DNA of 64,000 nt, taken from contig NZ_BBMB01000007.1 of NCBI RefSeq assembly GCF_000971235.1, positions 122,804 to 186,803 on the forward strand, read 5' to 3'. Positions 4,722 to 59,786 of the stretch are shown piece after piece. Each line of letters opens with the position of its first letter. The first letter of the stretch is position 1. A program made the position numbers and the translations under genes. The notes under the pieces are model-generated. The model saw nothing but the letters and a program-made list of their open reading frames with translations. It ran no database searches and was not told where the DNA came from. The stretch is from Demequina subtropica (GTDB taxonomy: Bacteria; Actinomycetota; Actinomycetes; Actinomycetales; Demequinaceae).

Positions 4722-5189
4722 ATGGGACGCATGCCGATGGTGGCCATGGTGGCGCTGCTGGGAGCCCTGGTGCTCGGGACCGTGCTGAGCGCGTGCGCTG
4801 CGCCCGGTTCGACGGTGACCGGCCCGACCGGCTACGACGACCGGATCGACCTGGGCGTCCCGGGGGAGGTCGTGGAGACGGTCACGGGCGTCGAGGGCTA
4901 CCCGGCGTGCCACAACGAGCCGATCACCTACGACGGCACCACCTGGTACCCGTTCCTCCCCGAGAACCTCGCGGACTTCCCCGAGGTCGGGCCGCATCCC
5001 ACGACGGGCGGCGGCCTGGGCGGCGGGACGATGCGCATCGTCCTCCCCGCGGTCGCGGAGCCCGGACCGGGCGACGACGTGGGCACCCTCACGGTGTTCG
5101 AGGGCGGCTTCGCCTACTGGATCTCCGACTCGCGCGACCTCGACGCGTGGCTCACGGACCAGGAGCTCACCTACCCCTGGATCTGCTGA
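4722..5189 (+). CDS. Putative lipoprotein, unknown function
   Basis: A 155-residue protein with a lipoprotein signal: a hydrophobic stretch ending in the lipobox LSAC, so the mature protein should begin at Cys about 26 and be anchored to the outer face of the membrane. The mature domain has two more cysteines, one near the middle (YPACHNE) and one as the final residue. No family recognised. The gene contains a perfect 18-bp palindrome of the GGACGATGCG motif at 5026-5043. The start at 4722 is chosen for the signal peptide. Confidence 0.75.
   Translation: MGRMPMVAMVALLGALVLGTVLSACAAPGSTVTGPTGYDDRIDLGVPGEVVETVTGVEGYPACHNEPITYDGTTWYPFLPENLADFPEVGPHPTTGGGLGGGTMRIVLPAVAEPGPGDDVGTLTVFEGGFAYWISDSRDLDAWLTDQELTYPWIC
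5026..5043. repeat. Perfect palindrome of the GGACGATGCG motif
   Basis: GGACGATGCGCATCGTCC is its own reverse complement. It is two copies of the window-wide 10-mer GGACGATGCG overlapping head to head, inside the lipoprotein coding sequence (it encodes Thr-Met-Arg-Ile-Val). Confidence 0.85.
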
Positions 5190-5191
5190 CC

Positions 5192-5899
5192 CTACGCGTG
5201 GCTCTCGGTCTGGAGCTCGCGCTTCTGCACCACGGCGACGGACGGCACGCCCCAGCCACGCTTGAGCGACAGGGTGCGCAGCGCGAGGATCACCAGCAGC
5301 GGGACCCAGAACACCAGCTCGGCCGGTGCGCCCGCGGCCCACAGGGCCCATGAGGTGAAGGCTCCGCCCAGCGCCGCGGTCGCGTAGAGCTGGCCGTTCC
5401 AGAACACCTCCGGCACCTGCGCCGCGAACAGGTCACGCAGGATGCCGCCGCCGACCCCGTTCGCGACGCCCACGATCATCGCCGCGACCGGGCTCGCGCC
5501 CACATCGAGCGCGATGCCGGTGCCGATCACCACGAAGATGGCGAGCCCCGCGGCATCCGAGTACTCGACGATGCGGTGCCTGGCGAGCGCTCCCAGGTCC
5601 CGCCGCCGCGCGAACGGCGCGATGGCGAGCGCGGTCGCGATCGCGACCATCACCAGCGCGGGGTTCTCGATCCAGAAGACGTCCTGGCGCAGCAGGAGGT
5701 CGCGCATCGTCCCTCCGCCTACGGCGACGAGGCTCGCGAGGACCACGGCGCCTACGAGGTCCATGCGACGCCGGCTGGCCGCGACGGCACCCGAGATCGC
5801 GAACGCGACGGTGCCCAGGTACTCGAGCGCGATCCGCAGGGTGCCGAGGGCATGGGTGAGGATCACGTCGGGATCGACGGCGGTGGTGAGCGCGTGCAT
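5192..5899 (-). CDS. UPF0126/TRIC-type membrane protein
   Basis: A 235-residue polytopic protein with two similar halves: GAVAASRRRMDLVGAVVLA..VGGGTMRDLL and, later, DVGASPVAAMIVGVANGVGGGILRDL. This internal duplication with glycine-rich GGG(T/I)xRDL turns marks the UPF0126 family (YadS/YicG, TRIC fold), implicated in small-molecule or cation passage; the substrate here is unknown. About six to seven membrane helices are visible. ATG at 5899 is preceded by GGAGG; a longer frame to 5989 would add a non-homologous arginine-rich tail and run into the divergent gene. The C-terminus ends 2 nt from the convergent lipoprotein gene. Confidence 0.85.
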   Translation of the reverse strand: MHALTTAVDPDVILTHALGTLRIALEYLGTVAFAISGAVAASRRRMDLVGAVVLASLVAVGGGTMRDLLLRQDVFWIENPALVMVAIATALAIAPFARRRDLGALARHRIVEYSDAAGLAIFVVIGTGIALDVGASPVAAMIVGVANGVGGGILRDLFAAQVPEVFWNGQLYATAALGGAFTSWALWAAGAPAELVFWVPLLVILALRTLSLKRGWGVPSVAVVQKRELQTESHA

Positions 5900-5987
5900 G
5901 GGAGCCTCCGTTCGGGCGACCCTCAAGGGTACGGGAGCCCTGGTACCTTGGGCGCGCACTGGAGGCGTGGACACCGAGGGGGAACGC

Positions 5988-6443
5988 ATGCGACGTCGGG
6001 CGATGGCCGTGGTCGGAGGGCTGGCCGTGGCGGCCTCGATGAGCGGCTGCGCGCTGCTCGGTGCGGAGGCGGTGGAAGACCTCGAGCTCGCGGTGGGCGA
6101 GTGCGTCGACGAGTCGTCGCTGTCGGAGTCCGACGAGGAGGAGCAGCAGGTGGGGAGCCTCCCGCGCGTGGAGTGCGCCGAGGAGCACGACGCCGAGGTC
6201 TACTACGTCGAGGACCTCACGGACTCGTCGCTCCCCGACGACGTCGCGGACCGCGCCGACCAGATCTGCTACGAGGAGTACGCCGGCTACCTGGGGATCG
6301 AATTCGAGGACTCGCGCTACTACTACGTGTCGCTGTACCCGAGCCCGTCCACGTGGGCCTACGGCGACCGTCAGGTCGCATGCATGCTCGTGGGCGAGGT
6401 GGGCGAGCGGCTCACGGGCTCCCTCAAGGGGGCCGCCGCGTAG
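5988..6443 (+). CDS. Lipoprotein with septum-formation-like domain
   Basis: A 151-residue protein with a short signal peptide ending in MSGC (lipobox). The mature part follows the pattern of the actinobacterial Septum_form domain: VGECVD near the start, VECAEEHDAEVYYVED, a second cysteine in QICYEEY, then GDRQVACMLVGE. The four mature cysteines suggest two disulfides. The domain name comes from association with septation; a direct role is not shown here. A TACCTT -10 box near 5944 gives a short leader with GGGGGAACGC before the ATG. It is divergent from the UPF0126 gene. Confidence 0.75.
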   Translation: MRRRAMAVVGGLAVAASMSGCALLGAEAVEDLELAVGECVDESSLSESDEEEQQVGSLPRVECAEEHDAEVYYVEDLTDSSLPDDVADRADQICYEEYAGYLGIEFEDSRYYYVSLYPSPSTWAYGDRQVACMLVGEVGERLTGSLKGAAA

Positions 6444-6483
6444 CGCGCCTCGGACGGGCACGTCCGCCGGTAGACTGCGGCCC

Positions 6484-6792
6484 ATGGCCACGATCCTCGT
6501 CCACGTCATGCCCAAGCCTGAGATCCTCGACCCGCAGGGCAAGGCCGTCGGTGCCGCCCTCCCGCGTCTGGGCTTCGAGGGCATCTCGCAGGTCCGCCAG
6601 GGCAAGCGCTTCGAGATCACCGTCGACGGTGAGGTCACCGACGAGGTGCTCGCGAACGTCCGCACGGCGGCGGAGACTCTGCTGAGCAACCCCGTGATCG
6701 AGGACGTCGTCCAGGTCAAGGTGGTCCGTGAGGGCGGCTGCGGCTGCGGCGGTCACGGGCATGGCAAGGCCGAGAAGGACCTGCTCGCGTGA
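6484..6792 (+). CDS. purS: FGAM synthase subunit PurS
   Basis: PurS is the small bridging subunit of the three-part formylglycinamidine ribonucleotide synthase PurSQL; its partners here are purQ (adjacent) and purL (32.9 kb). The core [21 protein letters not shown] and the rest to about residue 82 match the family. At 102 residues it is longer than the usual 80 or so because of a C-terminal tail with [10 protein letters not shown], which looks able to bind metal. TAGACT (6471-6476) ends 7 nt before the ATG, so the transcript is probably leaderless. Its stop overlaps the purQ start by 4 nt. Confidence 0.95.
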
Positions 6793-7493
6793 CCGCGCGC
6801 ATCGGCGTCGTCACCTTCCCGGGGACGCTCGACGACCGTGACGCCTCCCGCGCGGTGCGCCTCGCCGGTGCCGAGGCGGTGGAGCTGTTCCACGCGGACG
6901 CCGACCTCAAGGACGTCGACGCCGTGGTGCTGCCCGGCGGCTTCTCCTACGGCGACTACCTCCGCGCCGGCGCGATCGCGCGCTTCGCGCCCATCATGGA
7001 GAAGGTGGTCGACGCCGCGAACGGCGGCATGCCGGTGCTGGGCATCTGCAACGGCTTCCAGGTGCTGACCGAGGTCCACCTGCTGCCCGGCTCGATGATC
7101 AAGAACGAGCACCTGCACTTCATCTGCCGCGACCAGACGCTGCGCGTCGAGAACGCGGAGACCTCCTGGACCACCGAGTACCAGGACGGCGAGGAGATCG
7201 TCATCCCGCTGAAGAACCAGGACGGCCAGTACGTCGCTGACGACTACACGCTCGACCAGCTCGAGGCCGAGGGTCGCGTCGCGTTCCGCTACGTCGGCTG
7301 GAACCCCAACGGCTCGCGCCGCGACATCGCCGGCATCACCAACGAGCGCGGCAACGTGGTGGGCCTCATGCCGCACCCCGAGCACGCGGTCGAGGCGGGC
7401 TTCGGCCCGGACTCGCGTGAGGCGGGTCGCATGGGCACGGACGGCCTGGCATTCTTCACGAGCGCGATCAAGGGCCTGCTCGCCACCGCATAG
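6789..7493 (+). CDS. purQ: FGAM synthase subunit PurQ (glutaminase)
   Basis: PurQ is the class I glutamine amidotransferase that releases ammonia for PurL. The 234-residue protein has the nucleophile elbow GICNGFQVL (Cys about 84), the oxyanion region [14 protein letters not shown], and the catalytic His/Glu pair in MPHPEHAVE near residue 198. It begins with GTG at 6789, overlapping the purS stop (GTGA), so the two are translationally coupled. Confidence 0.97.
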
Positions 7494-7550
7494 CCGCGCC
7501 CTGCCTCCTGCGGGGAACGCATCGCTGCTTGTGCTGGGAGAGGGAGGACG

Positions 7551-8216
7551 ATGCAGCGCACCCAGGTGATCTCGGCCCTCGCCGATGCGGTCGCGCGGGC
7601 CGCATCGTCCCTCACCCATCCTGTGCGCGTGGGGCTCGACGGCGCGGACGGCGCCGGCAAGACCACGATGCGCCTCGCGCTCGCGGTCCAGCTGAGGCTG
7701 CGCGGCGCGGAGGTGATCGAGGCGAGCCTCGACGACTTCCATCACGCGCGCGAGCGCCGCTACCGTCAAGGACGGGACAGCTGGCGCGGCTACACGGACG
7801 ACGCCTTCGACCTCGCGCGGGTGCGGAGCGACCTGCTCGACCCGCTCGGGCCGCGCGGGGACCTCAGGTTCCGCACCCGGTCGCGCGAACTCGCCACCGA
7901 CACCGCGCTCGACGACCCGTGGCTGACGGCTCGCCCCGACGCGATCCTGCTGGTCGACGGGGTCATGCTCCAGCGCCCCGAGCTCGCGGGGGCGTTCGAC
8001 CGCATGATCTTCCTCGACGCCTCCGAGCGCGAACGGTATCGGCGCCTGGCCCTGCGAGACGGCGCCGACCCCGAGCCCGAGGCGCCCTCGAATGTGCGGT
8101 ACACCCTCGCGCATCGTCACTACCGGGCGTTCTGCCGTCCGGACGAGCGCGCCGACGTCCTCGTGGACCACGAGGACGTGCACGGCCCGGTCATCCTGAG
8201 AGGAGCCCCCGCATGA
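7551..8216 (+). CDS. Uridine kinase-like P-loop NTPase
   Basis: A 221-residue protein with Walker A GADGAGKTT (about residues 30-38), an SLDDFHHARERRYRQG segment like the substrate loop of uridine kinases, and a Walker B-like ILLVDGVML. This arrangement matches the uridine kinase/phosphoribulokinase superfamily members common in actinobacteria whose substrate is unproven. AGGGAGG precedes the ATG. The stop overlaps the next gene by 4 nt, so the two are probably cotranscribed. Confidence 0.8.
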   Translation: MQRTQVISALADAVARAASSLTHPVRVGLDGADGAGKTTMRLALAVQLRLRGAEVIEASLDDFHHARERRYRQGRDSWRGYTDDAFDLARVRSDLLDPLGPRGDLRFRTRSRELATDTALDDPWLTARPDAILLVDGVMLQRPELAGAFDRMIFLDASERERYRRLALRDGADPEPEAPSNVRYTLAHRHYRAFCRPDERADVLVDHEDVHGPVILRGAPA

Positions 8217-10605: not shown

Positions 10606-11586
10606 ATGATCACCATCCGCCGGGTCGAGCCGGACGATGCGGACGCCCACCTCCTGTGGTCCGAGCAGCAGGCGGACCTCGCGGTCCGGTACGACAGCCC
10701 CGACCTCATCCTCGAGTCCAGCTTCCCGACGCTCGTCGCGTCGCTCGTGGGCTATGCGGAGGACGGCGAGCCCGTCGCGAGCATCGTGCTGCGCTGGTCG
10801 CCCTATCCGACAGGCGCGGGATCGATCGAGGTCAAGCGGCTCTGGGTGCGTCCCGCGCATCGCGGCCATGGCCATTCCAAGGTCATGATGGGTGCGGCCG
10901 AGTCGATCGCCCGCAAGGCCGGCGCGACCCGCATCGTGCTCGAGACCGGGACGGAGCAGCCCGAGGCGCTCGGCCTCTACGACCGCCTGGGCTATGAGCG
11001 CATCGCCCCCTATGGCGAGTACAAGGACGAGCCCGACTCGGTCTGCTACGGGCTCGACCTGGCGCCCCGCGTGCTGATCGTCACCGGCACGCTCGGCGCG
11101 GGCAAGACAGCCGTGGGCGGCGCGATCCACGAGCTGCTTGCGGAGCGCGGCGCCCGCACGGCGTTCCTCGACGCCGATGCGCTGATCCAGTCGTACCCCG
11201 CAGCGCCGCACGATCCCGGCAACGAGGCGCTGCTGCTGCGCTCTCTCGCGCTGCTCGCTCCCCTGCACCGCGACCGGGGCGTGGGGAACATCGTGCTCGC
11301 GTGCGCGGTGGAGACGGCCGAGGCTCTCGCGGCCCTCGCGCGCGCGCTCGGCGGCGGGACGGCGCCCGACGTCGCGGTGGTGCGGGTGGCGGCGCCGCTC
11401 GAGGCCCGGCTCGTGCGCTTCGACCGGCGACCGGTGTCCGAGCGCTGGCTGGACTGGGCGCGGGAGCGCACCATCGAGCTCGACGCGCTGCTCGATGCGG
11501 CCGGGCTCGAGGACGCGACCGTCGACACGGGCGACCGCGACCCGTTCGACGTGGCCGCCGAGGCGCTCGACGCGGTCGGGTGGTGA
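10606..11586 (+). CDS. GNAT acetyltransferase fused to a P-loop kinase-like domain
   Basis: A 326-residue two-domain protein. Residues 1-153 form a GNAT N-acetyltransferase, with the acetyl-CoA signature in VKRLWVRPAHRGHGHSKVMM and the late LGLYDRLGYERI. Residues about 155-326 hold a separate P-loop domain with Walker A GTLGAGKTAVG, of the nucleoside or gluconate kinase type. Each half resembles a stand-alone family; the fusion is unusual. TAGCCT (10594-10599) lies 6 nt before the ATG, pointing to a leaderless start. The stop overlaps the next gene by 4 nt (GTGA). Confidence 0.8.
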   Translation: MITIRRVEPDDADAHLLWSEQQADLAVRYDSPDLILESSFPTLVASLVGYAEDGEPVASIVLRWSPYPTGAGSIEVKRLWVRPAHRGHGHSKVMMGAAESIARKAGATRIVLETGTEQPEALGLYDRLGYERIAPYGEYKDEPDSVCYGLDLAPRVLIVTGTLGAGKTAVGGAIHELLAERGARTAFLDADALIQSYPAAPHDPGNEALLLRSLALLAPLHRDRGVGNIVLACAVETAEALAALARALGGGTAPDVAVVRVAAPLEARLVRFDRRPVSERWLDWARERTIELDALLDAAGLEDATVDTGDRDPFDVAAEALDAVGW

Positions 11587-13238
11587 CGGGCGTGAGCGCG
11601 CTGCTGATCCGCGGCGGCGTCCTCTGGTCCGATGGCGCCTTCCTCGACGGCGACGCCGTGCTGGTGGTCGGCGGCGTCGTGCGCGCGATCGGCGCGGGCG
11701 AGGAGCTCGCGGCGCGGGACGATGCGGCGGGCGCCGAGGTGGTCGACGCGGCCGGTGGTCTGGTCCATGCGAGCTTCGCCGATGCGCACGTGCACGCCGC
11801 GATGGCCGGCATCGAGGCGCTCGGGCTCGACGTGAGCGCGGCCCACGGCGCCGAGGAGTGCCTCGCGCGGGTGGCCGCGTACGCCGCGGCGCATGAGGGC
11901 CCGTGGATCGTCGGCGGCGGCTGGCACATGTCCGACTACGAGGGCGGCACCCCGACCGCCGCGGCGCTCGACGCCGTCACCGGGGACGTGCCGACGTTCC
12001 TGGTCAACGCCGACCACCACGGGGCGTGGGTCAACTCCGCCGCGCTCCGGGCGGCGGGGATCGACGCGGACACTCCGGATCCCGAGGACGGACGCATCGA
12101 GCGCGACGGCACGGGGAGCCCGACGGGCACGCTGCACGAGGGTGCGATGGCGCTGGTCGAGCGGCACCTGCCTCCCGTGTCCGAGGACGATGCGCGTGCG
12201 GGTCTGGCGGTCGCCGCGGGCACCCTCCTGAGGCACGGGGTGACCGCCTGGCAGGAGGCGATCGTCGGCGAGTACGGCGGCCACTCCGACGCGACGCCCG
12301 CGTACACCGCGCTGATCGCCGACGGCTCGCTCGCGGCCCGGGTCTCGGGGGCGCTGTGGGTTCCTCGCGATGCGACGCTCGAGAGCGTCCCGGCGCTGGT
12401 GGCCTCGTTCGTGCGCCGCCGCGACGCGAACGCCCTCGCGGGCTTCGACACCTCGAGCGCGAAGATCATGGTCGACGGGGTCGCGGAGAACCGCACGGCG
12501 GCCATGCACGAGCCGTACGTCGAGCCCGGCTGCGACTGCGGTGCAGGCGTGGACGGCGAGCGCGGCATCGCGTACTTCTCGACGGCGGTGCTGCGTGCGG
12601 TCGCGGCCGCGCTCGCGGCCGAGGGCTTCGCCTTGCACTTCCACGCGATCGGCGACCGTGCGGTCACCGAGGCGCTCGACGCGGTCGAGGCGATCCCTGC
12701 GGCTGACCGGAGCCGACGCCGGCACCACATCGCCCACGTCCAGGTGGTGGATCCGGCGGATGTGCCGCGCTTCGCGGCGCTGGGCGTCACCGTGAACGCC
12801 CAGGCCCTGTGGGCGCGCAACGAGGCGCAGATGACCGAGCTCACCGTGCCGATCCTCGGCGAGCGACGCGCGGCGTGGCAGTACCCGTTCGGGTCCTTCC
12901 TGCGCGCCGGCGCCTCGCTCGCGATGGGTTCCGATTGGCCCGTCTCGACTCCCGACCCGTGGCAGGCGATCCACACGGCGGTCACGCGCCGCGAGCCGGG
13001 CTCCGACGCGGGGCCGCTCAACCCGGTGGAGGCGCTCACGCTCGCGGAGGCGCTGCGCGCCTACACGGCCGGCTCCCATGAGCTGCTGGGCCTCGAGGGC
13101 TCCGGCGTGCTCGAGGCAGGTGCACGGGCCGACCTGTGCGTGGCGTCGCGCGATCCGTTCGCGGGCTCGCCGGAGGAGATCGCGACGACGCGGACCGTGG
13201 TGACGGTGCTCGGCGGCGAGGTGGTGGCGCGGGTCTAG
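11583..13238 (+). CDS. YtcJ-type metal-dependent amidohydrolase
   Basis: A 551-residue member of the amidohydrolase 3 family. The metal-binding HxH is in FADAHVHAAMAG, the later histidine in FHAIGDRAV, and the catalytic Asp region in MGSDWPVSTPDPWQ. These enzymes hydrolyse C-N bonds, but YtcJ-like substrates are mostly unknown. The start is either GTG 11583 (overlapping the upstream stop) or GTG 11592. Its TAG stop overlaps the TAG stop of the convergent lipoprotein gene within TCTAGA. Confidence 0.85.
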   Translation: MTGVSALLIRGGVLWSDGAFLDGDAVLVVGGVVRAIGAGEELAARDDAAGAEVVDAAGGLVHASFADAHVHAAMAGIEALGLDVSAAHGAEECLARVAAYAAAHEGPWIVGGGWHMSDYEGGTPTAAALDAVTGDVPTFLVNADHHGAWVNSAALRAAGIDADTPDPEDGRIERDGTGSPTGTLHEGAMALVERHLPPVSEDDARAGLAVAAGTLLRHGVTAWQEAIVGEYGGHSDATPAYTALIADGSLAARVSGALWVPRDATLESVPALVASFVRRRDANALAGFDTSSAKIMVDGVAENRTAAMHEPYVEPGCDCGAGVDGERGIAYFSTAVLRAVAAALAAEGFALHFHAIGDRAVTEALDAVEAIPAADRSRRRHHIAHVQVVDPADVPRFAALGVTVNAQALWARNEAQMTELTVPILGERRAAWQYPFGSFLRAGASLAMGSDWPVSTPDPWQAIHTAVTRREPGSDAGPLNPVEALTLAEALRAYTAGSHELLGLEGSGVLEAGARADLCVASRDPFAGSPEEIATTRTVVTVLGGEVVARV

Positions 13239-13783
13239 AGGTCCTCGTCCGCGCAGGAAGAGCCCGGTGCCGTCCGGTACTCGACGAGGACACGCTCGAG
13301 CTTCTCGTCGCCGTCGCTCGAGTAGAGCACCTCGATGTCGTCGACCGTCGCGGACCGTGCCGCGTCCTCGGCGGTGATGCTGAAGACCAGCTGGGCGGTG
13401 ACGCCGGGCTCGATCACCGCCTCCTCGGGGGCGACGAGGCGGGCGAGCAGCTCCTCCTCGTATCCGTAGGGCTCGTCGGCAGGCCACCTCATCGTGCCGA
13501 TCATCTGGCCGGAGACCTCCGCCTCGAGGTCGACGCCGATCTCCACCGAGGCGACGTTCTCGCCGCTCGCGGTGGCCGAGCGCAGCTCCGCCGGGGCATC
13601 GCCGGTATTCGTGAGGGGCTCGCCGAAGTAGACGGTCCCGTCACCGCGGGGGCCGCAGACGAGGACGGAACCGGCCGAGACGCGTGGGCCCTCGAGGGGG
13701 CCGCCCTCGGACGGGGAGCAGCCCGCGAGGGCGCCTGCGATCAGGAGGGCCGCCATGCCGGCGGTCATGGTGCGTCGTCGCAT
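13235..13783 (-). CDS. Putative lipoprotein, unknown function
   Basis: A 182-residue protein with a signal peptide ending in LAGC (lipobox). The mature part is acidic, with one cysteine in VLVCGPRGD and another near the C-terminus, and a beta-rich pattern resembling the DUF4352-like lipoproteins, which I cannot confirm. A TAGGTT -10 box (13816-13821, minus) gives a leader of about 25 nt with AGGGACG before the ATG. A GGACGATGCG motif overlaps the start codon (13779-13788). Confidence 0.7.
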   Translation of the reverse strand: MRRRTMTAGMAALLIAGALAGCSPSEGGPLEGPRVSAGSVLVCGPRGDGTVYFGEPLTNTGDAPAELRSATASGENVASVEIGVDLEAEVSGQMIGTMRWPADEPYGYEEELLARLVAPEEAVIEPGVTAQLVFSITAEDAARSATVDDIEVLYSSDGDEKLERVLVEYRTAPGSSCADEDL

Positions 13784-13847
13784 CGTCCCTGCTTCCCTCG
13801 GACAACCCTGACAGGAACCTAGCGCCTCGGCGCTCGTCCGCGCGTGC

Positions 13848-13866: not shown

Positions 13867-14568
13867 TCAGTCGGCGAGGGCGAACCTCACGGCGGCCTCC
13901 GCGTGGAGGGCGAGCGCGTCGAGGTACGGCACCTCGACGTCCTCGGCCGTCATGACCATGGGGATCTCCGTGCAGCCCGCGATGACGCCCTGCGCCCCTG
14001 CGCCGATCAGCTCCTCGGTGGCCGTCCGCATGAGCGCGCGCCCCGCATCGTCCACGATCCCGCGCGCGAGGCGCTCGTAGATGAGCGCGTGGACCTCGGT
14101 GAGGCGCGGCTCGGACGGCACCAGCGCCTCGACCCCGGCCGCTGCGAGGCGCTCGCGGTAGAACGGCATCCGCATCGTGAAGCCCGTGCCCAGCAGCGCG
14201 ACCCGGTCGAGCCCCGCCGCGCGGGCCGCGGCGGCGACCGCGTCGACGATGTGGATCACCGGCACACCCGCGGCCTCCGCCACCTGGTCGGCGACCAGAT
14301 GCATCGTGTTGGCGCAGATGAGGATGGCCTCGGCGCCGCCGTCGGCGAGGCGGCGTGCATCGTCGCCGAACCGGGCCGCCAGGCCGTCCCAGTCGCCCTC
14401 GGCCTGCGCCCGCTCGACCGCGCTCCACTCGTAGTGGCGGATCAGCAGGTCCGCGCTGGAGCCGGGCAGCGTGGCGGCGACGCCCTCGTGGAGCAGGCGC
14501 TCGTACTCGAGCGTCGAGTGCCACGTGATGCCTCCCAGGAGGCCGAGCCGGCGGGGTGCGGTGCGCAT
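13867..14568 (-). CDS. Aspartate/glutamate racemase-like protein
   Basis: A 233-residue protein with the family start RRLGLLGGITWHSTLEYERL and both catalytic cysteines: ICANTMH (about residue 83) and AGCTEIP (about residue 195). The family interconverts L- and D-Asp or Glu; substrate is not certain. A TAGCGT box ends 7 nt before ATG 14568, so the mRNA is probably leaderless. It diverges from the CueR-type gene. Confidence 0.85.
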   Translation of the reverse strand: MRTAPRRLGLLGGITWHSTLEYERLLHEGVAATLPGSSADLLIRHYEWSAVERAQAEGDWDGLAARFGDDARRLADGGAEAILICANTMHLVADQVAEAAGVPVIHIVDAVAAAARAAGLDRVALLGTGFTMRMPFYRERLAAAGVEALVPSEPRLTEVHALIYERLARGIVDDAGRALMRTATEELIGAGAQGVIAGCTEIPMVMTAEDVEVPYLDALALHAEAAVRFALAD

Positions 14569-21089: not shown

Positions 21090-21156
21090 CCCCCACTTCG
21101 GGGGTCTTCCGGACGATGCGGCCGCGGGCCGAGCGTGCCCCGCCGCCGCATCGTCC
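21090..21156 (-). terminator. Two hairpins after the alpha-xylosidase gene
   Basis: The first inverted repeat downstream of the stop at 21161 is GGACGATGCGGC (21111-21122) paired with its exact complement (21145-21156), a 12-bp stem with a 22-nt loop built from two copies of the window-wide motif. A second, smaller hairpin with CCCC and GGGG arms around cactt follows at about 21090-21106. Together they probably end transcription of the xylosidase gene. Confidence 0.6.
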
Positions 21157-29083: not shown

Positions 29084-29153
29084 ACGCTAGCGACGCGACG
29101 CCGCGCGCCGCATCGTCCCTGCGCATCGTTCCTGGGTGATACCCCGGTATGAC
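29084..29153 (-). promoter_or_regulatory. Transporter promoter module (copy A)
   Basis: Minus strand, in order: dyad GTCATACCGGGGTATCAC (29136-29153), 6 nt, ACGATGCG (29122-29129), 5 nt, ACGATGCG (29109-29116), 19 nt, -10 TAGCGT (29084-29089), 7 nt, ATG. Every element and every spacing is repeated at 48503-48572. It likely binds a regulator that controls both transporter units. Confidence 0.8.
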
Positions 29154-32824: not shown

Positions 32825-32906
32825 GCCCGCGCCGTCCGGGGGAGAGGCGAGGGGGAGCGCGCGGCTAGGATTGCCGGGTATCCGCCGGCACTCTCACGAG
32901 GACACC

Positions 32907-35213: not shown

Positions 35214-35245
35214 GGCCTCTGCCGGGGACGATGCGCGGGTAGGGC

Positions 35246-45944: not shown

Positions 45945-47742
45945 CGCACGGCCTCGCTGTCGCGCAGCGCCTCGGCGGGCGTGCCCAGGTGGATCGCGGA
46001 GGCGGCGAGCGCCGTGACCGAGACGAAGGCCGCGAAGATGAGGACGCCCCACATGACCACGTGGCTCCACGGCACGGACTCGAGCATCAGCGCGGGATAG
46101 GAATCGGTGAGGATCCCGCCGAGCGAGCGTCGCGCGGCGCCCAGGCCCGACATCGTCATGCGGGTGACGACCCCGGCAGCGGCACCGGCCGCGACCGCGA
46201 CCGACGCCACGACCGCGCCCTCGATCGCGAGGGCCTGCCGCACGATGCGCGCCTCGACGCCGAGCGCGGCGAGCATCGCGGCGTCCCGACCGCCGGCCCG
46301 CACCGCGCCGAGCGCGAGGGGCGCGAGCAGCAGCACGAGCGCGACGGAGGCGGGCGCGACGCCCTGCCAGGTGCCCGGCTCGTCGCTGTAGCGGAACGAC
46401 GACGATGCCCACGAGGCCTCTCCCGTGTCGAGGTCTGCGACGGCCATGCCGATCGCCTCGCGGGCGGCGCCGGCCTCGACGTAGACCAGGTACGCCGTGC
46501 CGAGCCCGGGGGCGTCGATGCCTGCGGCGCCGACGTAGGACTCCGAGCTGTGCACCGACGGGACGATCCCGTCCGGGTCGATCGCATCGGCCTGGAGGTC
46601 GTTCAGGCTGGTCGCGCTCGAGACGACGGCGTCCGGGTGCGTCCTCAGCGCGCGGGCGAGGTCGTCGTCGACGCCGGCGAGGTCGGACGGGTCGAGGGCG
46701 ACGACGGTGTGTGTGCGCTCGACGCCGCTCACCACGTCGCCCACCACCACGCGCTCGACCCCGTCCAGCTCCGCGATCTGCTCGGACAGGTCCGGCGCGT
46801 CCGCGTCCACCATGAGCGTCATCGCCAGCCGGTCGCTCTGCTGGACCCCCGTGGGCACCACCAGCCACGCCGCGAGCGCGAAGGCGATCGCCCCGACAGC
46901 CATCACCGCGCGCCCCGCCGCCCTGGTCGGGGACGATGCGCGTGCCGCCAGCACGGCTGCCAACCTCGGCGCCCCGGCGCCGTCGCTCAGCCCCGCCGCG
47001 AGCGCGACGAACCGCGGCGCGAGCGTGCGCGCCCACGGCAGCACCGCGCCGAGCACGAGGCCGATGGCCGCGACCCATGCGACCGCATAGGCGACGCCCG
47101 CGGCCACGACCGCGGATGCCCCGCCCTGGTCGGTCGTGAGGGCGAGACCCACGACCACACCCGCCGCCGTGGCGCCGATGCCCGCAGCGATCCGTGCGCC
47201 CCGACCGAAGCGGGCGGGAGCGAGCGGCTCGGCGTCCTCGCGAAGGCGCTCGGCTGGCGAACGCTGCGGGCGCCAGACCGCCAGCGCGTGCGCGACCGTG
47301 AGGGCGAGCGTCAGCAGCACGGCCTCGACCGCGCGCGTGGTCCACAGGTCGGTGAAGGTCGAGAACGGCTCCCAGCCGTGCGAGGTCTCCTGCGAGACGT
47401 GGAGCGAGCCGGCGATCGCGTACGCGGCGGCGGCCACCGCGGCGCCGTCGCGCAGGCCGATGAGCGCAGCGCGGCGCACTCCTGCGTGAGCTGCCTCGCC
47501 GAGCGCGGCGCGCACCGCCGCCTCGTGCGCGGAGCCGGGCCGGATCCCGAGCGTCCACACGAGCACCGCGGTGAGCAGCGCGGCGGGGATCGCGAGGAAG
47601 ATCACGAGCGTGGCGACCGAGCGCCCCGTGACGGGATCGGAGGCCATGGCGCAGATCGACGCGCAGTCGTCGAGGTGCCACGGCACCTGCGCCGCCATCA
47701 CCGCGCCGCCGACGATGCCCGCGACCAGCGCCGCCGCGCCCC

Positions 47743-48502: not shown

Positions 48503-48572
48503 AACCTATCGACGGCCCGCTCGCCCGCGCATCGTCCCCTCGCACCGTTCTCGCGTGATACCCAGGTATGAC
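48503..48572 (-). promoter_or_regulatory. Transporter promoter module (copy B)
   Basis: Minus strand, in order: dyad GTCATACCTGGGTATCAC (48555-48572), 6 nt, ACGGTGCG (48541-48548), 5 nt, ACGATGCG (48528-48535), 19 nt, -10 TAGGTT (48503-48508), 7 nt, ATG. Spacings are identical to copy A at 29084-29153 although the intervening bases differ. Confidence 0.8.
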
Positions 48573-49885: not shown

Positions 49886-50536
49886 TCAGCCGCGTGCGAC
49901 CAGGCCTGCCTCGAACGCGATGACCACCGCCTGCACGCGGTCGCGCGCGCCGAGCTTCGCAAGCACGCGGCCCACGTGCGTCTTCACGGTGGGCTCGGCG
50001 AGGTACAGCTCTGCGCAGATCTCCGCGTTCGACAGCCCTCGTGCCATGAGCGCCAGGACCTCGCGCTCGCGCTCGGTGAGGGAAGCGAGCCGCGCATCGT
50101 CCACCGGTTCCGGCATGGCCGCGACGCGGGCGAGCAGCCGGCGCGTCGACGAGGGCGCGATCACCGCGTCCCCCGCGTGCACCGTGCGCACCGCCGCGAG
50201 CAGGTCCTCGGGCGGCGCGTCCTTGAGCAGGAAGCCGGACGCGCCCGCCTTGATGGCTGCGACCACGTACTCGTCGAGGTCGAAGGTGGTGAGGATCACC
50301 ACCTTGGTGGGGGACGATCCGGTGATCGCCGCGCACGCCGCGATCCCGTCGGTGCCGGGCATGCGCACGTCGACGAGCGCGACGTCCGCCGGAGGGTCGA
50401 GCGCCGCCAGCGTCGCGATCGCGGCGGCGCCATCGCCGGCCTCCGCGACCACCGTCATGTCCTCCTGGGAGTCGACCACCATGCGGAAGCCCGCACGGAT
50501 GAGCTGCTGATCGTCGACGAGCGCGACGCGGATCAT
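49886..50536 (-). CDS. NarL/LuxR-type response regulator
   Basis: A 216-residue regulator: receiver domain with phospho-acceptor Asp in VALVDVRMPGTDG (about residue 56) and Lys in FLLKDAPPED, then a LuxR-type HTH, LTEREREVLALMARGLSNAEI. Start ATG 50536 overlaps the kinase stop (ATGA). It is of the DesR/LiaR type that often controls envelope stress or transporter genes, and the nearby transporter promoter module is a candidate target (inference). Confidence 0.95.
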   Translation of the reverse strand: MIRVALVDDQQLIRAGFRMVVDSQEDMTVVAEAGDGAAAIATLAALDPPADVALVDVRMPGTDGIAACAAITGSSPTKVVILTTFDLDEYVVAAIKAGASGFLLKDAPPEDLLAAVRTVHAGDAVIAPSSTRRLLARVAAMPEPVDDARLASLTEREREVLALMARGLSNAEICAELYLAEPTVKTHVGRVLAKLGARDRVQAVVIAFEAGLVARG

Positions 50537-51327
50537 GCGTCCTCCTTCTCGGACAGGGGTGCGGTGCGAGGGGTGAGGGGCAGGCGGGCGCGCACCAGGA
50601 AGCCGCCGCCCGCACGCGGGCCCGCCGTGAGCGTGCCGCCGAAGACGGTCGCGCGCTCGGCCATCCCCGCGATGCCCAACCCGGCGCCGTCGCCGCGCGC
50701 CGCGGCGCCCCGGCCGTCGTCGGAGACGGCCACGGCCAGCGCATCGTCCTCCCATCGCAGCTGCACGAACGCGGTGACGTGCGGCCCGGCATGCTTGAGC
50801 ACGTTGGTGAGGGCCTCCTGGACGATGCGGTAGGCGGCCAGGCCCGCCCCGATCGGCAGGGGGCGAGGGGTTCCGGTGGTGACGTACGAGACCTCGAGGC
50901 CGCCCTCGCGGATCGACGCGACCAGCTCAGGGATGTCCGCGAGCGACGGCTGCGGGCCCATGTCCGCGTCGCCGTCGCCGTCGCGGAGGATCCCGAGCAG
51001 CGCGCGCATCTCGGCGAGCGCGGAGCGGCTCACGTCCGCGATCGTGTCGAGGCTCGACAGAGCGGCGCCGGCGTCGGTGCGGCCCGCGAAGCGTCCGCCG
51101 TCCGCCTGCGCGACCACGACCGAGAGGGTGTGCGCGACCACGTCGTGCATCTCGCGGGCGATGCGCGCGCGCTCGTTCGAGGCGGCGAGCGCGAGAGCCG
51201 CCTCGCCCGCTTGCGCGCTCTCCTCGGCGCTCGCGCGGGAGCGCCGCCGCTCGACGGCGAGCAGGGCGCCCAGGACGCATGCGATCAGCGTGGCGATCGC
51301 CGTGAGGCCCCATGCCAGCCAGATCAT
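50533..51327 (-). CDS. DesK/NarX-type sensor histidine kinase
   Basis: A 264-residue kinase with a single short membrane anchor (MIWLAWGLTAIATLIACVLG) and no separate sensory domain. HisKA_3 contains the phospho-His in REMHDVVAHTLSVVVAQ (about residue 62). The ATPase domain has EALTNVLKHAG and SDDGRG. ATG 51327 was chosen because TACAGT ends 7 nt before it; GTG 51336 would fall inside the promoter. Confidence 0.93.
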   Translation of the reverse strand: MIWLAWGLTAIATLIACVLGALLAVERRRSRASAEESAQAGEAALALAASNERARIAREMHDVVAHTLSVVVAQADGGRFAGRTDAGAALSSLDTIADVSRSALAEMRALLGILRDGDGDADMGPQPSLADIPELVASIREGGLEVSYVTTGTPRPLPIGAGLAAYRIVQEALTNVLKHAGPHVTAFVQLRWEDDALAVAVSDDGRGAAARGDGAGLGIAGMAERATVFGGTLTAGPRAGGGFLVRARLPLTPRTAPLSEKEDA

Positions 51328-53025: not shown

Positions 53026-53045
53026 GCCATCGAAGGGAGGGGACG

Positions 53046-55049: not shown

Positions 55050-55146
55050 GTCCCGGGCGCGGAGCGGACGATGCGGTCCCGTGCGCGCGCCGGTCCGGCC
55101 GCGGATCCCGTTCACGGGCCGTTCGGGCACCGCCTAGACTTGCCAC

Positions 55147-55497
55147 GTGAGCGACGTCCCCCAGGAAGACACCGCGTCCGGACTCCCCGAGCAGGAGCAG
55201 ACCGCTCCCGCACCCGCACCCGGTGAGCGCCCGGTCCCGGAGGACCTCGCGAGCGTGGCCGTCCCGGCGCACGTGCGGAACGCCCCCAGGTTCGGCAGCT
55301 TCATCGGCACCGGCGTGGGCGCGGGCATCATCGTGGCCGCGGTCCTCGCGATCTTCCTGCCCAACTCGACGGGCGTGGGCCGCTTCCTCGTCTTCGTGCT
55401 GCTGGCCCTCGGGCTGTGCCTGCTCGGCGCCATCATCGGCGGCGCGCTCGCCACGTCGATGGACCGCGCATCGTCCGCCACCAAGGAGAACCGATGA
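55147..55497 (+). CDS. Small membrane protein upstream of purF
   Basis: A 116-residue protein with a proline/glutamate-rich cytoplasmic N-terminus of about 45 residues and two membrane helices (GTGVGAGIIVAAVLAIFL and FLVFVLLALGLCLLGAIIGG). A similar small gene before purF is common in actinobacteria, but no function is known. TAGACT (55135-55140) lies 6 nt before GTG 55147 (leaderless). Its stop overlaps purF (ATGA). Confidence 0.8.
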   Translation: MSDVPQEDTASGLPEQEQTAPAPAPGERPVPEDLASVAVPAHVRNAPRFGSFIGTGVGAGIIVAAVLAIFLPNSTGVGRFLVFVLLALGLCLLGAIIGGALATSMDRASSATKENR

Positions 55498-57005
55498 CGA
55501 ACCGCCGCAGCCCCCTCGGCACGTCGATGACGACCCGACGCGGCGGCGACGGCCGCCTGAACCACGACCTCCTCCAGGGCGAGGCCGCGCCGCAGGACGA
55601 ATGCGGCGTGTTCGGCGTCTTCGGGCCCGGCGAGGAGGTCGCCAAGCTTGCCTACTTCGGGCTCTACGCGCTCCAGCACCGCGGCCAGGAGTCCGCGGGC
55701 ATCGCGACCTCGAACGGCGAGAACATCCTGGTGTTCAAGGACATGGGCCTGGTCTCCCAGGTGTTCGACGAGGGCGCGCTCGAGGCGCTCCAGGGCCACA
55801 TGGCCGTGGGCCACACGCGCTACTCGACCACCGGCGCCTCCGTGTGGGCGAACGCGCAGCCCACGCTCGGTCCCACCGAGCACGGCACCATCGCGCTCGG
55901 TCACAACGGCAACCTCACCAACGTCCAGCAGCTGCTCGACCTGCTGATCGAGCGCGAGGGCATGGCCAAGCGGCTCGACCTCAAGGGCGGCAAGTGCACG
56001 GACACGGCGATCGTGACCGCGCTGCTGGGCGCGGAGGGCTTCGAGTCGCTCGAGGAGGTCGCGATCGACCTGCTGCCCCAGGTGGAGGGCGCGTTCTCCT
56101 TCGTCTTCATGGACGAGCACCGCATGTACGCCGCGCGCGACCCGCAGGGCTTCCGTCCGCTCGTGCTCGGCTCGCTGCCGTCCGGCGGCTGGGTGGTGGC
56201 CTCGGAGACCGCCGCGCTCGACATCGTCGGTGCGAAGCACGAGCGCGAGATCGAGCCGGGCGAGCTCATCGTCATCGATGAGACCGGCGTGCGCTCGCGC
56301 CGCTTCGCGGAGGCGGACCCCAAGGGCTGCATCTTCGAGTACGTCTACCTCGCGCGTCCCGACACGACCATCGCCGGACGCTCGGTGCAGATGGCGCGGC
56401 TCGCGATGGGCCGCGCGCTCGCGAAGGAGCACCCCGTCGAGGCCGACCTGGTGATCCCGACGCCCGAGTCCGGCACCCCCGCGGCGGTGGGCTACGCGCA
56501 GGCCTCCGGCATCCCGTTCGCGCAGGGCCTGGTGAAGAACGCCTACGTGGGCCGCACCTTCATCCAGCCGTCGCAGACGCTGCGCCAGCTGGGCATCCGG
56601 CTCAAGCTCAACCCGCTGCGCGAGGTCATCGAAGGCAAGCGCCTCATCGTGGTCGACGACAGCATCGTGCGCGGCAACACCCAGCGCGCGCTCGTCGCGA
56701 TGCTGCGCGAGGCGGGCGCGGCCGAGGTGCACGTGCGCATCTCCTCGCCGCCCGTCCAGTGGCCGTGCTTCTACGGCATCGACTTCCCCACGCGCGAGGA
56801 GCTCGCGGCGGTGGGGCACTCGGTCGACGAGATCCGCGACGAGATCGGTGCGGACTCGCTCGGCTACATCTCCCTCGAGGGCATGCTCGCCGCGACCGAG
56901 CAGGCGCAGGAGCGCCTGTGCACCGCGTGCTTCACCGGGACCTACCCGGTCGAGCCGCCCGTGAACGCCCGGCACCTGCTGGTGTCCCAGCCCGTGGAGG
57001 CCTGA
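55494..57005 (+). CDS. purF: Amidophosphoribosyltransferase
   Basis: PurF makes phosphoribosylamine from PRPP and glutamine, the first step of purine synthesis. The 503-residue precursor has a propeptide ending before the nucleophile Cys in DECGVFGVF (about residue 36), an N-terminal glutaminase domain and a C-terminal PRTase domain with PRPP motif RLIVVDDSIVRGNT. Cysteines near the C-terminus (CTACFTG) match the iron-sulfur type. ATG 55494 has AAGGAGAA upstream and overlaps the preceding stop. Confidence 0.97.
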   Translation: MTNRRSPLGTSMTTRRGGDGRLNHDLLQGEAAPQDECGVFGVFGPGEEVAKLAYFGLYALQHRGQESAGIATSNGENILVFKDMGLVSQVFDEGALEALQGHMAVGHTRYSTTGASVWANAQPTLGPTEHGTIALGHNGNLTNVQQLLDLLIEREGMAKRLDLKGGKCTDTAIVTALLGAEGFESLEEVAIDLLPQVEGAFSFVFMDEHRMYAARDPQGFRPLVLGSLPSGGWVVASETAALDIVGAKHEREIEPGELIVIDETGVRSRRFAEADPKGCIFEYVYLARPDTTIAGRSVQMARLAMGRALAKEHPVEADLVIPTPESGTPAAVGYAQASGIPFAQGLVKNAYVGRTFIQPSQTLRQLGIRLKLNPLREVIEGKRLIVVDDSIVRGNTQRALVAMLREAGAAEVHVRISSPPVQWPCFYGIDFPTREELAAVGHSVDEIRDEIGADSLGYISLEGMLAATEQAQERLCTACFTGTYPVEPPVNARHLLVSQPVEA

Positions 57006-57008
57006 ACC

Positions 57009-58118
57009 ATGACCGAGCCGCAGGGCATCACCTACGCGTCCGCGGGCGTCGACACGCACGCGGGCGACCGCGCGGTCGAGCTCATGAAGGCGGCCGTGGC
57101 GAAGACGCACGGCCCCGAGGTGCTCGGGGGCGTGGGCGCGTTCGCGGGGCTCTTCGACGCCTCGGCGCTCAAGGCGTACGACCGCCCGCTGCTCGCGTCC
57201 TCGACGGACGGCGTGGGCACCAAGATCGTCATCGCGCGGGCCCTCGGGGTGCACGACACGATCGGGCAGGACCTGGTCGCGATGGTGGTCGACGACATCG
57301 TCGTGTGCGGCGCCAAGCCGCTCGTCATGACGGACTACATCGCGTGCGGGAAGGTGGTGCCCGAGCGCATCGCGGACATCGTGCGTGGCATCGCGGTCGG
57401 CTGCGAGATGGCGGGCGTCGCCCTGGTGGGCGGCGAGACCGCCGAGCACCCGGGCGTGATGGAGCCGGACGACTACGACGTCGCGGGCGCGGCGATCGGT
57501 GTGGTCGAGGCCTCGGCGCTGCTGGGCCCCGATCGGGTCCGGTCCGGCGACGTGGTGGTCGCGATGGCCTCGTCCGGGCTGCACAGCAACGGCTACTCGC
57601 TGGTGCGCTCCGTGGTCGCGCACGCGGGCTGGTCGCTCTCGACGTCGGTGCCCGAGCTCGGTCGCACCGTGGGCGAGGAGCTCCTCGAGCCCACGCGGAT
57701 CTACTCGCAGCTGTGCGTCGACCTGGCGGCCTCGGTGCCCGGTCTCCGTGCGTTCTCCCACGTCACGGGAGGCGGCCTCGCGGCGAACCTCGCGCGCGTG
57801 CTCCCCAAGGGCCTCGCGGCGTCTGTCGCGCGCGATGCCTGGGACCTGCCCGCGGTGTTCTCGGTGGTCCAGGCGGCGGGATCCGTGCCGTGGAACGACC
57901 TGGAGTCGACGCTCAACATGGGCGTGGGCATGGTCGCGGTGGTGGCTCCGGAGGACGCCGACGCGCTGATCGCGGCTTCCGCGGCCGCGGGCGTGCCGGC
58001 GTGGGTGCTGGGGTCGGTGTCGGCGGACGCCGGGCTGCCCACGGGTCCCGACGTGGTCCGCGGCGCCAAGGGCGTCGACGGCGGCACCGTGGTGCTCTCG
58101 GGGGCGTACCGGGCCTGA
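57009..58118 (+). CDS. purM: Phosphoribosylformylglycinamidine cyclo-ligase
   Basis: PurM (AIR synthase) closes the imidazole ring of FGAM using ATP. The 369-residue protein has ASTDGVGTKIVIA, DDIVVCGAKPLVMTDYI, LVGGETAEHPGVM and HVTGGGLAANL. The start is 3 nt after the purF stop, with GTGGAGG upstream, so purF-purM are one operon. Confidence 0.97.
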   Translation: MTEPQGITYASAGVDTHAGDRAVELMKAAVAKTHGPEVLGGVGAFAGLFDASALKAYDRPLLASSTDGVGTKIVIARALGVHDTIGQDLVAMVVDDIVVCGAKPLVMTDYIACGKVVPERIADIVRGIAVGCEMAGVALVGGETAEHPGVMEPDDYDVAGAAIGVVEASALLGPDRVRSGDVVVAMASSGLHSNGYSLVRSVVAHAGWSLSTSVPELGRTVGEELLEPTRIYSQLCVDLAASVPGLRAFSHVTGGGLAANLARVLPKGLAASVARDAWDLPAVFSVVQAAGSVPWNDLESTLNMGVGMVAVVAPEDADALIAASAAAGVPAWVLGSVSADAGLPTGPDVVRGAKGVDGGTVVLSGAYRA

Positions 58119-58142
58119 ATCGCCTGACGCGGCCACCCCACT

Positions 58143-58368: not shown

Positions 58369-58384
58369 GGGAGCGGGAGAGGAC

Positions 58385-58567
58385 TCAGTCCTCGTCGTCC
58401 GCCCAGCGGTCGTAGTACTCGTCCGAGTCGTCGGCGGTGTGGGTGGGCGCGCTCGCCTCGCGGCTGGTCAGCTCACGCTCGAGCTCACGGAGGTCACCAC
58501 CGTGGTTCGTGTACTTGAGCTGACGAGCGATCTTCGCGTCCTTAGCCTTCTGACGGCCTCGCCCCAT
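58385..58567 (-). CDS. DUF3073 family protein
   Basis: A 60-residue highly charged protein starting MGRGRQKAKDAKIARQLKY and ending in an acidic tail (DDSDEYYDRWADDED), matching the actinobacterial DUF3073 family. Function is unknown; the gene is often found next to purM and bldC. GGGAGGGACG precedes the ATG. A possible TAAAGT -10 box lies at 58630-58635 (minus). Confidence 0.9.
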   Translation of the reverse strand: MGRGRQKAKDAKIARQLKYTNHGGDLRELERELTSREASAPTHTADDSDEYYDRWADDED

Positions 58568-58915
58568 GTCGCCGTCCCTCCCGGTCTCTCGCGCCTCGTG
58601 TGCGGGCGCCGCCTCGTCATTCCTGCCCTACTTTACAACGCGTGTCCAGCACGTTGCGACCGCCCTGGAAGCGGGATCGCGCGCCGCGGCCGGCGCGACG
58701 CGCGGACCGATGCGCATCGTCGCCCGCGACGCAAGCCGCCGTGAGGTCTGTCACATGCTGCGCACAGTCTGAGGGCGCGACACGCCGTACATGTCACAAT
58801 ATGGAAATTACGGAAACAGTGACCTTTCGCCGTCATAATCGCTTCCGTCGGACGTCTCATCGCACACAGGAGCCTCCCCCGAGGCGCTCGACACGGACTG
58901 AGGGAACGAAATTTC
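58568..58915. promoter_or_regulatory. Divergent intergenic region before bldC
   Basis: A 348-nt region without a gene. The half next to bldC (about 58790-58850) is unusually A+T-rich for the window and includes CATAAT (58833-58838), a plausible -10 box, and two TGTCACA-like stretches (near 58750 and 58795). The other half holds TAAAGT for the DUF3073 gene. The long leader fits a regulated developmental gene; no operator is certain. Confidence 0.45.
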
Positions 58916-59113
58916 ATGACTGAAACTGCGCAGGAGCCCGAGAAGCTGCTCACCCCTTCTGAGGTTGCCGCGATCTTCCGCGTCGACCCCAAGACCGTGA
59001 CCCGCTGGGCCAAGGTCGGCAAGCTCAGCTCGATCCGTACGCTCGGCGGGCACCGCCGCTTCCGCGAGGCCGAGGTCCAGGCCCTCCTCGCGGCGGCACA
59101 GGAAGGCCGCTGA
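58916..59113 (+). CDS. bldC: BldC-type MerR-like DNA-binding protein
   Basis: A 65-residue single winged-helix protein: LLTPSEVAAIFRVDPKTVTRWAKVGKLSSIRTLGGHRRFRE, near identical in pattern to Streptomyces BldC. BldC binds direct repeats cooperatively and controls the timing of development; outside Streptomyces its role is less clear. No effector domain. Confidence 0.93.
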   Translation: MTETAQEPEKLLTPSEVAAIFRVDPKTVTRWAKVGKLSSIRTLGGHRRFREAEVQALLAAAQEGR

Positions 59114-59258
59114 GCCTCGAGCAGGCTGTGGCGTCCTTCTGAGGGAGGGGCGCCGGTGCCGCGCGTCGACGCGCGGTGACACACGACGCTGGCGCGCGCC
59201 CATCGCGATGTCCGATGGGCGCGTGCCGGGTGTCAGACGGTGGTCGTAGCCTGCTGTC

Positions 59259-59786
59259 ATGACATCGGCACCGCTCATCGGGGCGTCCTACGAGACGCCC
59301 TTCGGCACGCTCACCGTGCTCGCTACGCCCGAGGACGGCGTCGTCCGTTCGTCGGGCTTCCGGACGATGCGCGACACGGTCGCGGGGCTCCCTGCGCCGA
59401 TGCAGGGACGGGGCTGGGAGCCGGGCGAGCTTCCGCACGTGGCCGCCGCGATCGCGGCCTGGCTCGACGGCGACGGCGACGCTCTCGCGTCGGTCCCGAT
59501 CGTGCAGCAGGGCGGACCGTTCTTCCAGGAGGTCTGGGAGCAGCTGCGCACCGTGCCCTCCGGAAGCGCCGTGAGCTACCAGGAGCTCGCGACGATGGCG
59601 GGGCGTCCGCGTGCCATGCGCGCGGCCGGTACTGCGTGCGCGCGCAACAACATCGCCCCGTTCGTGCCGTGCCACCGGGTGGTGCAGTCGGGCGGAAGGC
59701 TCGGCAGCTACGGCTTCGGCGGCACCGAGGTCAAGGCGGCGATGCTCGCGCTCGAGGGTGCGTGGCCGCTGCCGGCACGGGCATGA
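59259..59786 (+). CDS. ogt: Methylated-DNA-[protein]-cysteine S-methyltransferase
   Basis: A 175-residue repair protein that removes alkyl groups from O6-alkylguanine. The acceptor Cys is in VPCHRVV (Cys 138), after YQELATMAGRPRAMRAAGTA, the helix-turn-helix that binds DNA. TAGCCT (59247-59252) lies 6 nt before the ATG (leaderless). Its stop overlaps the next gene (ATGA). Confidence 0.93.
   Translation: MTSAPLIGASYETPFGTLTVLATPEDGVVRSSGFRTMRDTVAGLPAPMQGRGWEPGELPHVAAAIAAWLDGDGDALASVPIVQQGGPFFQEVWEQLRTVPSGSAVSYQELATMAGRPRAMRAAGTACARNNIAPFVPCHRVVQSGGRLGSYGFGGTEVKAAMLALEGAWPLPARA

Follow-up and report, generated by a model that had tools for sequence, protein, structure and literature searches.

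What keeps a single 10-base word in such numbers, on both strands, within and between genes, along a 64,000-nucleotide stretch of the Demequina subtropica genome (hereafter the window)? The word is GGACGATGCG, and a preliminary description of the window offered three candidates without choosing among them: a DNA-uptake-like sequence, a drift motif like cyanobacterial HIP1 (highly iterated palindrome 1), or a site for a nucleoid or methylation protein. Our comparisons suggest that GGACGATGCG is probably a DNA uptake sequence (DUS), that is, a self tag favoured by the uptake apparatus in natural transformation. We prefer this candidate to the HIP1-like and nucleoid alternatives because of the motif's dialects, the tolerance of changes around its core, its dialect-specific conservation and the presence of competence genes. 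On this basis the motif appears to work like a DUS, and we regard it as a candidate rather than a proven member of that class.

The motif's excess is genuine and strong, and it extends over the whole genome. The window holds 29 copies of GGACGATGCG (11 on the plus and 18 on the minus strand), whereas 100 dinucleotide shuffles gave a mean of 1.01 and a maximum of 5. Its inner 8-mer, ACGATGCG, occurs 52 times (25 plus, 27 minus; shuffle mean 6.6, maximum 14). These counts bear out the preliminary figures of about 28 full 10-mers and at least 42 8-mers, and all 24 positions given there are in our 8-mer table; its expectation of about two 8-mers was too low, although the excess survives the correction. 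Counted over the whole 3.08-Mb genome, as had been proposed, GGACGATGCG occurs 1,079 times (552 forward, 527 reverse), against 3 occurrences of the reversed control, which has the motif letters in backward order. In a 584-kb sample, comprising the window and 26 further stretches of the same genome (L159, L186–L210), the motif occurs 201 times where a third-order Markov model of that sample predicts 8.2, far from the near-Markov count that the preliminary description had named as telling against a motif. GGACGATGCG and the two variants introduced below, GGCCGATGC and CCGACGCTG, are all non-palindromic. The motif thus resembles known uptake sequences in being short and non-palindromic and in its copy number, which runs from hundreds to thousands and far exceeds both the Markov expectation in the samples and the reversed pattern in whole genomes. 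The most over-represented 10-mer without any inner hexamer of the motif, CGCGATCGCG, reaches 160 copies against 52 expected in the same sample; this word, in roughly threefold excess, includes the HIP1 octamer.

Comparison with sister genomes revealed that the motif is spelled differently in different species. Over 44 genomes of Demequina (Micrococcales in the NCBI taxonomy) the distribution of GGACGATGCG is bimodal: 15 genomes carry 711–1,564 copies and 29 carry 10–235. In 22 genomes taken from the order's other families the count is 3–37. The 36 genomes nearest to D. subtropica all fall in one genus. The nearest named PurL, at 82% identity with the next record at 75%, is that of D. salsinemoris, in which a single 22-kb locus (L009) holds 10 copies of GGACGATGCG. 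Other spellings prevail in most of the low genomes. The one-letter variant GGCCGATGC stands at least sixfold above its reversed control in 20 of these 29, with 409–2,018 copies, and CCGACGCTG exceeds its control in G009 (1,062 versus 50), G003 (404 versus 67), G032 (245 versus 49) and G011 (363 versus 103). A word search that presupposed no word, run on 40–60 kb from each of 14 low genomes, brought up dialect words in 11 of them: GGCCGATGC, followed by G, C or T, was among the top words in eight, and the remainder were G009 (GCCCGACGCT and CCGACGCTGT), G003 (GCCGACGCTG) and G026 (GGACGATGCC); in G001, G011 and G017 this search found nothing clear. When words were ranked in 42 genomes (3–520 kb each), the dialect word came first in most of those with at least 38 kb. 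It did not lead in G001, G011, G019 or G059, despite 943 and 928 genome-wide copies of GGACGATGCG in G019 and G059, respectively. In G026, 58 kb contain the 9-mer GGACGATGC with other last letters 20 times against 1.5 expected, and GGCCGATGC in G012 is at 5.1 times its control. Across 218 genomes of the order, the degenerate word GGMCGATGC reaches 1,072–2,220 copies in 15 Demequina genomes and at most 828 elsewhere, in a 9.4-Mb genome. Densities are 295–521 per Mb for GGACGATGCG in the 15 rich genomes and up to 747 per Mb for GGCCGATGC.

The species dialects GGACGATGC, GGCCGATGC and CCGACGCTG share the core CGA[T/C]GC. In either main dialect, words with one letter changed at positions 4–9 (CGATGC) mostly do not exceed the Markov level, and the exceptions are small (for example, 7 versus 1.8 and 9 versus 4.8), whereas several changes at positions 1, 2, 3 and 10 lie well above it (71 versus 17, 60 versus 12, 40 versus 8.5 and 32 versus 6, among others). 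The core is rigid and the edges are tolerant; no flanking position of GGACGATGCG exceeds 0.18 bit. We placed the dialects on two species trees, one of 40 genomes from AroC, LepA, LeuS, PilB and Efp (G005 and G028 dropped, G029 and G032 left out) and one from AroC, LepA and LeuS; many genomes lack some of the markers, and the branching is partly discordant between the trees. On both, the dialects fall mostly by clade, around an invariant inner core. The exceptions are the presence of GGACGATGC in two clades, the 4 of 44 genomes with no clear dialect and mixed counts in some genomes. Specifically, GGACGATGCG/GGACGATGC characterizes the main clade and, separately, G004 and G060, which cluster with G027, G001 and G011, genomes of weak CCGACGCTG or no clear dialect. 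Because of this dialect series, a recognition system whose reader changes is the simplest interpretation of the motif.

A related longer word, GACGATGCCG, was seen in a second family of the order, f20 (G095, G135; L251–L254, L269–L270), with 434 copies in a 2.7-Mb genome and 476 in a 2.2-Mb genome; its density exceeds 110 per Mb in 7 of 15 sampled f20 genomes. The word could belong to a further branch of the same system, but the case is weak, given that it is fairly frequent throughout the order.

To see which spellings are retained among relatives, we compared the ComEC region in 12 genomes of the GGACGATGCG dialect, using 105 query sites that are not mutually independent. Of 770 comparisons, 435 had the 9-mer GGACGATGC unchanged at the orthologous position (site bootstrap 0.49–0.64), against 34% for composition-matched control 9-mers. 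The foreign-dialect 9-mer was identical in only 20 of 163 comparisons (20 sites) in the same genomes, against 29% for its controls. Three groups of the GGCCGATGC dialect likewise kept their own motif, in 16 of 47, 26 of 45 and 8 of 19 comparisons against 21, 19 and 13% for controls; the foreign motif gave 0, 4 and 0 comparisons there, too few for judgement. A species' own spelling is therefore kept in its relatives, and the foreign spelling is not in the sole reverse case with enough sites. These pooled tests supersede small per-species samples of 2–6 aligned sites, in which, for instance, 5 of 6 were identical in G002 and 0 of 3 in G004.

Genes for competence, which the preliminary description had suggested looking for, are present, with a ComEA-like protein, ComEC and a type IV pilus operon. 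Of 41 genomes searched, 40 have ComEC (PF03772). In D. subtropica it adjoins a protein in which SLBB and helix-hairpin-helix domains score above the Pfam cut-offs and which we read as a putative ComEA; the NCBIfam models comE and ComEC_Rec2 gave hits below their cut-offs. The pilus operon lies on contig C12, flanked by shikimate dehydrogenase and chorismate synthase genes. It encodes PilB (646 bits in NCBIfam, slightly below cut-off), PilT and PilM (both above cut-off), PilC (T2SSF), PilA and two more proteins with N-methylation motifs, and a prepilin peptidase, together with a candidate PilN and PilO suggested by a weak hit and by position. PilB is present in 44 of 44 genomes, and outside the operon D. 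subtropica encodes a TadA, a TadA-like ATPase that scores below cut-off and a further ATPase of the PilT family. The competence machinery, ComEA, ComEC and a type IV filament, is thus present as genes, several with sub-cut-off NCBIfam scores. ComEC itself (L159:8758–11849 in D. subtropica) diverges very fast, with 61–65% identity to species whose LeuS is 90–97% identical. We considered whether ComEC or ComEA might be a receptor shared by both GGACGATGC clades and saw no sign of it in identity to D. subtropica: ComEC is at 39% in G004 and 37% in G060, compared with 36, 38 and 39% in their neighbours G027, G001 and G011, and ComEA is at 46% and 44%, compared with 49, 46 and 51%.

Several observations weigh against an uptake role. 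By the cut-offs used, G001, G005, G012 and G027 (4 of 44) have no clear dialect. The dialects are also impure: GGCCGATGC stands at 1.1–6.0 times its control in the 15 GGACGATGCG genomes, and at 4.0 in D. subtropica, where such copies may be relics or tolerated variants. G021 has no conservation excess (12 of 54 versus 27%), and of the 128 control words that were compared at least 150 times, a cut-off that favours conserved words, 46 are conserved as much as the motif or more; conservation by itself is not unusual for a word. Edge tolerance and alternative spellings are described for HIP1 motifs too (PMC4390886), and Demequina is not mentioned among the matches listed in our literature search on this question. 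ComEC and PilB are present with or without a strong motif and so do not discriminate. In the motif-rich G009, moreover, ComEC is split into two pieces that are read in different frames (C1:2039413–2040200), and in G026 it is interrupted, with a TGA inside one of two pieces (C1:423579–424363); both assemblies are single contigs, and the breaks may reflect assembly error or decay. At least two divergent forms of the pilus locus exist among Demequina species (L206:14603–L207:7486 on G000:C12; L211–L249), the PilB tree disagrees with that of the species, with dialects interleaved and GGACGATGC genomes in both halves, and we found no dialect-tracking receptor among the type IV pilus proteins.

G002 and D. 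subtropica share 92% identity in PilB and 95% in AroC, and the minor pilins of G002 have no tblastn match at 1e-5 to those of D. subtropica; the locus appears, from these comparisons and the discordant tree, to be exchanged between species. Type IV minor pilins are ruled out as the sole dialect determinant, because pilins diverge among GGACGATGC species and the locus is shuffled. In 32 genomes the block from PilB to PilM contains 28 own-dialect copies in 341 kb, compared with 99 in 234 kb of adjacent DNA and 423 in 920 kb elsewhere, a roughly fivefold depletion of the local spelling. Composition is not the cause, since the second-order expectation per kb is about equal inside and outside the block (for dialect A, 4.9 in 149 kb and 12.8 in 403 kb). 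A small motif excess persists within it (14 versus 4.9 and 12 versus 6.1). This depletion fits a locus that is frequently imported and as yet untagged, and import without tags is a prediction of a DUS; a slow HIP1-like process predicts depletion too.

The arrangement of the copies bears on two rival explanations, a polar replication or repair signal of the type of Chi or of KOPS (FtsK-orienting polar sequences) and a by-product of codon or dipeptide preference in GC-rich DNA. Chi is known in comparable copy numbers, and the motif's abundance would suit such a signal. The strand distribution would not: copies in the 584-kb sample divide into 99 plus and 102 minus, heterogeneity across its 27 stretches is absent (chi-square 23.4, 26 degrees of freedom, p = 0.61) and the majority-strand share is 0.641 against a random expectation of 0.636. 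The skew along replichores that defines polar signals is therefore missing, as judged on stretches rather than on a whole replichore, and the preliminary description was right to doubt one. There are, in addition, six close inverted pairs in the sample. An apparent polarity of GGCCGATGC, nearly all of it plus among the matches listed, was rejected when a direct count in L157 of the same contig gave 4 plus and 4 minus. As for codons, 161 of the 201 copies are coding and use the frames unevenly (Asp-Asp-Ala 73, Ala-Ser-Ser 44, Arg-Ile-Val 26 and 6 in each of the other three), as a dipeptide preference might predict. All six frames are nonetheless occupied, the remaining 40 copies are non-coding against 1.2 expected, and other families of the order carry few copies. 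The proposal that this is not a protein motif stands; no single codon pair in one frame explains it, and the codon account is already contradicted by the intergenic copies. By crude gene calls that make 13% of the sample non-coding, the density is about 0.51 per kb in non-coding and 0.32 in coding DNA, with 0.40 in divergent, 0.65 in tandem and 0.44 in convergent gaps, so that the motif is enriched between genes. Spacing is like random (coefficient of variation 0.87; random 0.84–1.07), with at least one copy in 87% of 5-kb and 98% of 10-kb fragments. The longest motif-free gap inside one stretch is 14.2 kb (L194); with spacing no different from random, gaps alone are no evidence for islands, and we rejected that idea. 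The absence of polarity, the use of six frames and intergenic DNA and the random spacing together argue against both explanations, leaving a Chi- or KOPS-type signal very improbable and a codon by-product with next to no probability.

Two other explanations were weighed. A binding site for a chromosome-organizing or nucleoid protein, spread along the chromosome, would agree with the random-looking spacing over the sampled stretches and the absence of strand bias. Such a site sits poorly with the predominance of copies inside genes, the lack of enrichment in divergent gaps and the fivefold depletion of the pilus block, and a change of dialect inside one genus is unlike a conserved organizer; we consider it rather improbable. 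The main rival is a HIP1-like motif, in which a methyltransferase target is maintained and multiplied by methylation-linked mismatch repair and a different enzyme brings a different motif. HIP1 is similarly abundant genome-wide, has one-base deviations biased to its edges and is replaced in places by alternative motifs paired with different methyltransferases, according to PMC4390886. The HIPs of that account are GC-rich palindromes present at 1,000–2,000 per Mb, whereas the Demequina motif is not a palindrome and is sparser in either main spelling. We consider a HIP1-like origin unlikely, yet the most probable of the alternatives.

Under the preferred DUS reading, a receptor on the uptake apparatus, be it ComEA, a pilin of the Tad or type IV class or some other surface protein, would prefer tagged fragments, which would then replace homologous DNA more often. 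Tags could in this way spread and persist through biased transformation, a form of molecular drive. If the receptor's preference shifted, the old spelling would decay and a new one accumulate, giving rise to dialects. We lean slightly towards a broader proposal, that this is a third origin of self-recognition in transformation, in Gram-positive Actinomycetota, with dialects that act as mating barriers and a pilus locus that crosses those barriers freely. If the uptake reading is true, the sequence would be new to this part of the bacterial tree, self-tagging would not need an outer-membrane uptake step and Demequina would be predicted to be naturally transformable. The dialect series, including one dialect in two separate clades, would then provide material for finding the receptor and for tests of molecular drive.

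Within the window, the preliminary description began the motif's range at position 5026; the coordinates it listed are right, and the first 10-mer lies earlier, at 3689–3698 on the minus strand in coding DNA. At 5026–5043, two copies (5026–5035 plus, 5034–5043 minus) are inverted and overlap in a perfect 18-bp palindrome, one of the six inverted pairs noted above. The further coding copies on the minus strand are at 5703–5712, 7601–7610, 14044–14053, 19008–19017, 23138–23147, 30045–30054, 38561–38570, 44332–44341, 45471–45480, 50093–50102, 50740–50749 and, in purF, 55467–55476. Those on the plus strand are at 10632–10641, 11717–11726, 12185–12194, 36997–37006 (in a beta-galactosidase-like gene), 46931–46940, 55066–55075 and 59362–59371. 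About ten copies had been described as intergenic. Intergenic copies do exist, but crude gene calls, by which 12.9% of the window is non-coding, assign 7 of the 29 10-mers to this class: minus-strand copies at 13779–13788, 29109–29118 and 48528–48537, plus-strand copies at 35226–35235 (starting 13 bases beyond the last base of purL) and 50820–50829, and an inverted pair at 21111–21156 (21111–21120 plus, 21147–21156 minus).

The window also contains purine genes (purA, purD, a GATase_5 protein, purL, purF and purM), scattered at 62–1354, 2369–3769, 6789–7493, 32658–35213 and 55416–58118 and forming no single operon. Two repeats were encountered in other genomes. In 44 kb of G122 (L259–L262), the overlapping words GGGGACGGTT and TTACAGGGGA occur 15 and 9 times against fewer than 0.2 expected, apparently as one repeat unrelated to the motif. 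In G027, which has no clear dialect, GGCGGGGTCG occurs 11 times in 20 kb (L175) against 0.4 expected and is either a local repeat or another motif.

Uptake sequences have been tied to two Gram-negative families (PMC7811141), and the literature surveyed, as far as its accessible text goes, describes them from Neisseriaceae and Pasteurellaceae only. A 2025 review presents Neisseria species as the exception in recognizing DUS (PMC12236230), and a 2023 paper states that no uptake sequences are reported for mycobacteria (PMC10526031). Searches on Actinomycetota, on Actinobacteria and more broadly, with subscription journals and preprints outside their coverage, gave no report of an uptake sequence in actinomycetes among the matches listed, and a search for the literal 10-mer gave no title on a bacterial genome motif among those listed. 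Among actinomycetes, Micrococcus luteus is transformed by means of Flp/Tad pili (PMC4322843), and the available text of PMC4322843 and PMC6370729 does not mention an uptake sequence. Demequina resembles it in encoding ComEA/ComEC and Tad-like ATPases and differs in having a PilB/PilT/PilC/PilM operon, M. luteus being apparently without genes for type IV pili or type II secretion (PMC4322843). With cyanobacterial HIP1 and the alternative HIPs, the Demequina motif shares extreme abundance, an edge-tolerant core and replacement in some species; unlike it, HIPs are palindromic and tied to methyltransferases (PMC4390886).

The closest match is to the DUS dialects of Neisseriaceae and the uptake signal sequence (USS) dialects of Pasteurellaceae, an analogy drawn from motif organization. 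The USS is a 9-bp motif with two dialects that follow subclades around a constant GCGG core (PMC12616744); it is commoner between genes than expected, occurs in inverted forms and has no general orientation bias (PMC2346458). The Demequina motif shares all of these traits, namely dialects with a constant core, intergenic enrichment, inverted forms and no orientation bias, in a different host group and with a different sequence and gene set. The USS also has an extended form, in contrast to the nearly featureless flanks in Demequina. In Neisseriaceae, DUS are over-represented 10-mers in eight dialects with a constant CTG core, present in thousands of copies and distributed in step with the core-genome tree (PMC3630211). 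Demequina departs from that system in being an actinomycete, in the unrelated sequence of its motif, in the candidate status of its uptake role and in the lack of an identified ComP-like receptor. It parallels the same system in having a motif of about 10 bases in high copy number, with dialects that follow phylogeny around an invariant core, CTG in the DUS and CGA[T/C]GC in Demequina.

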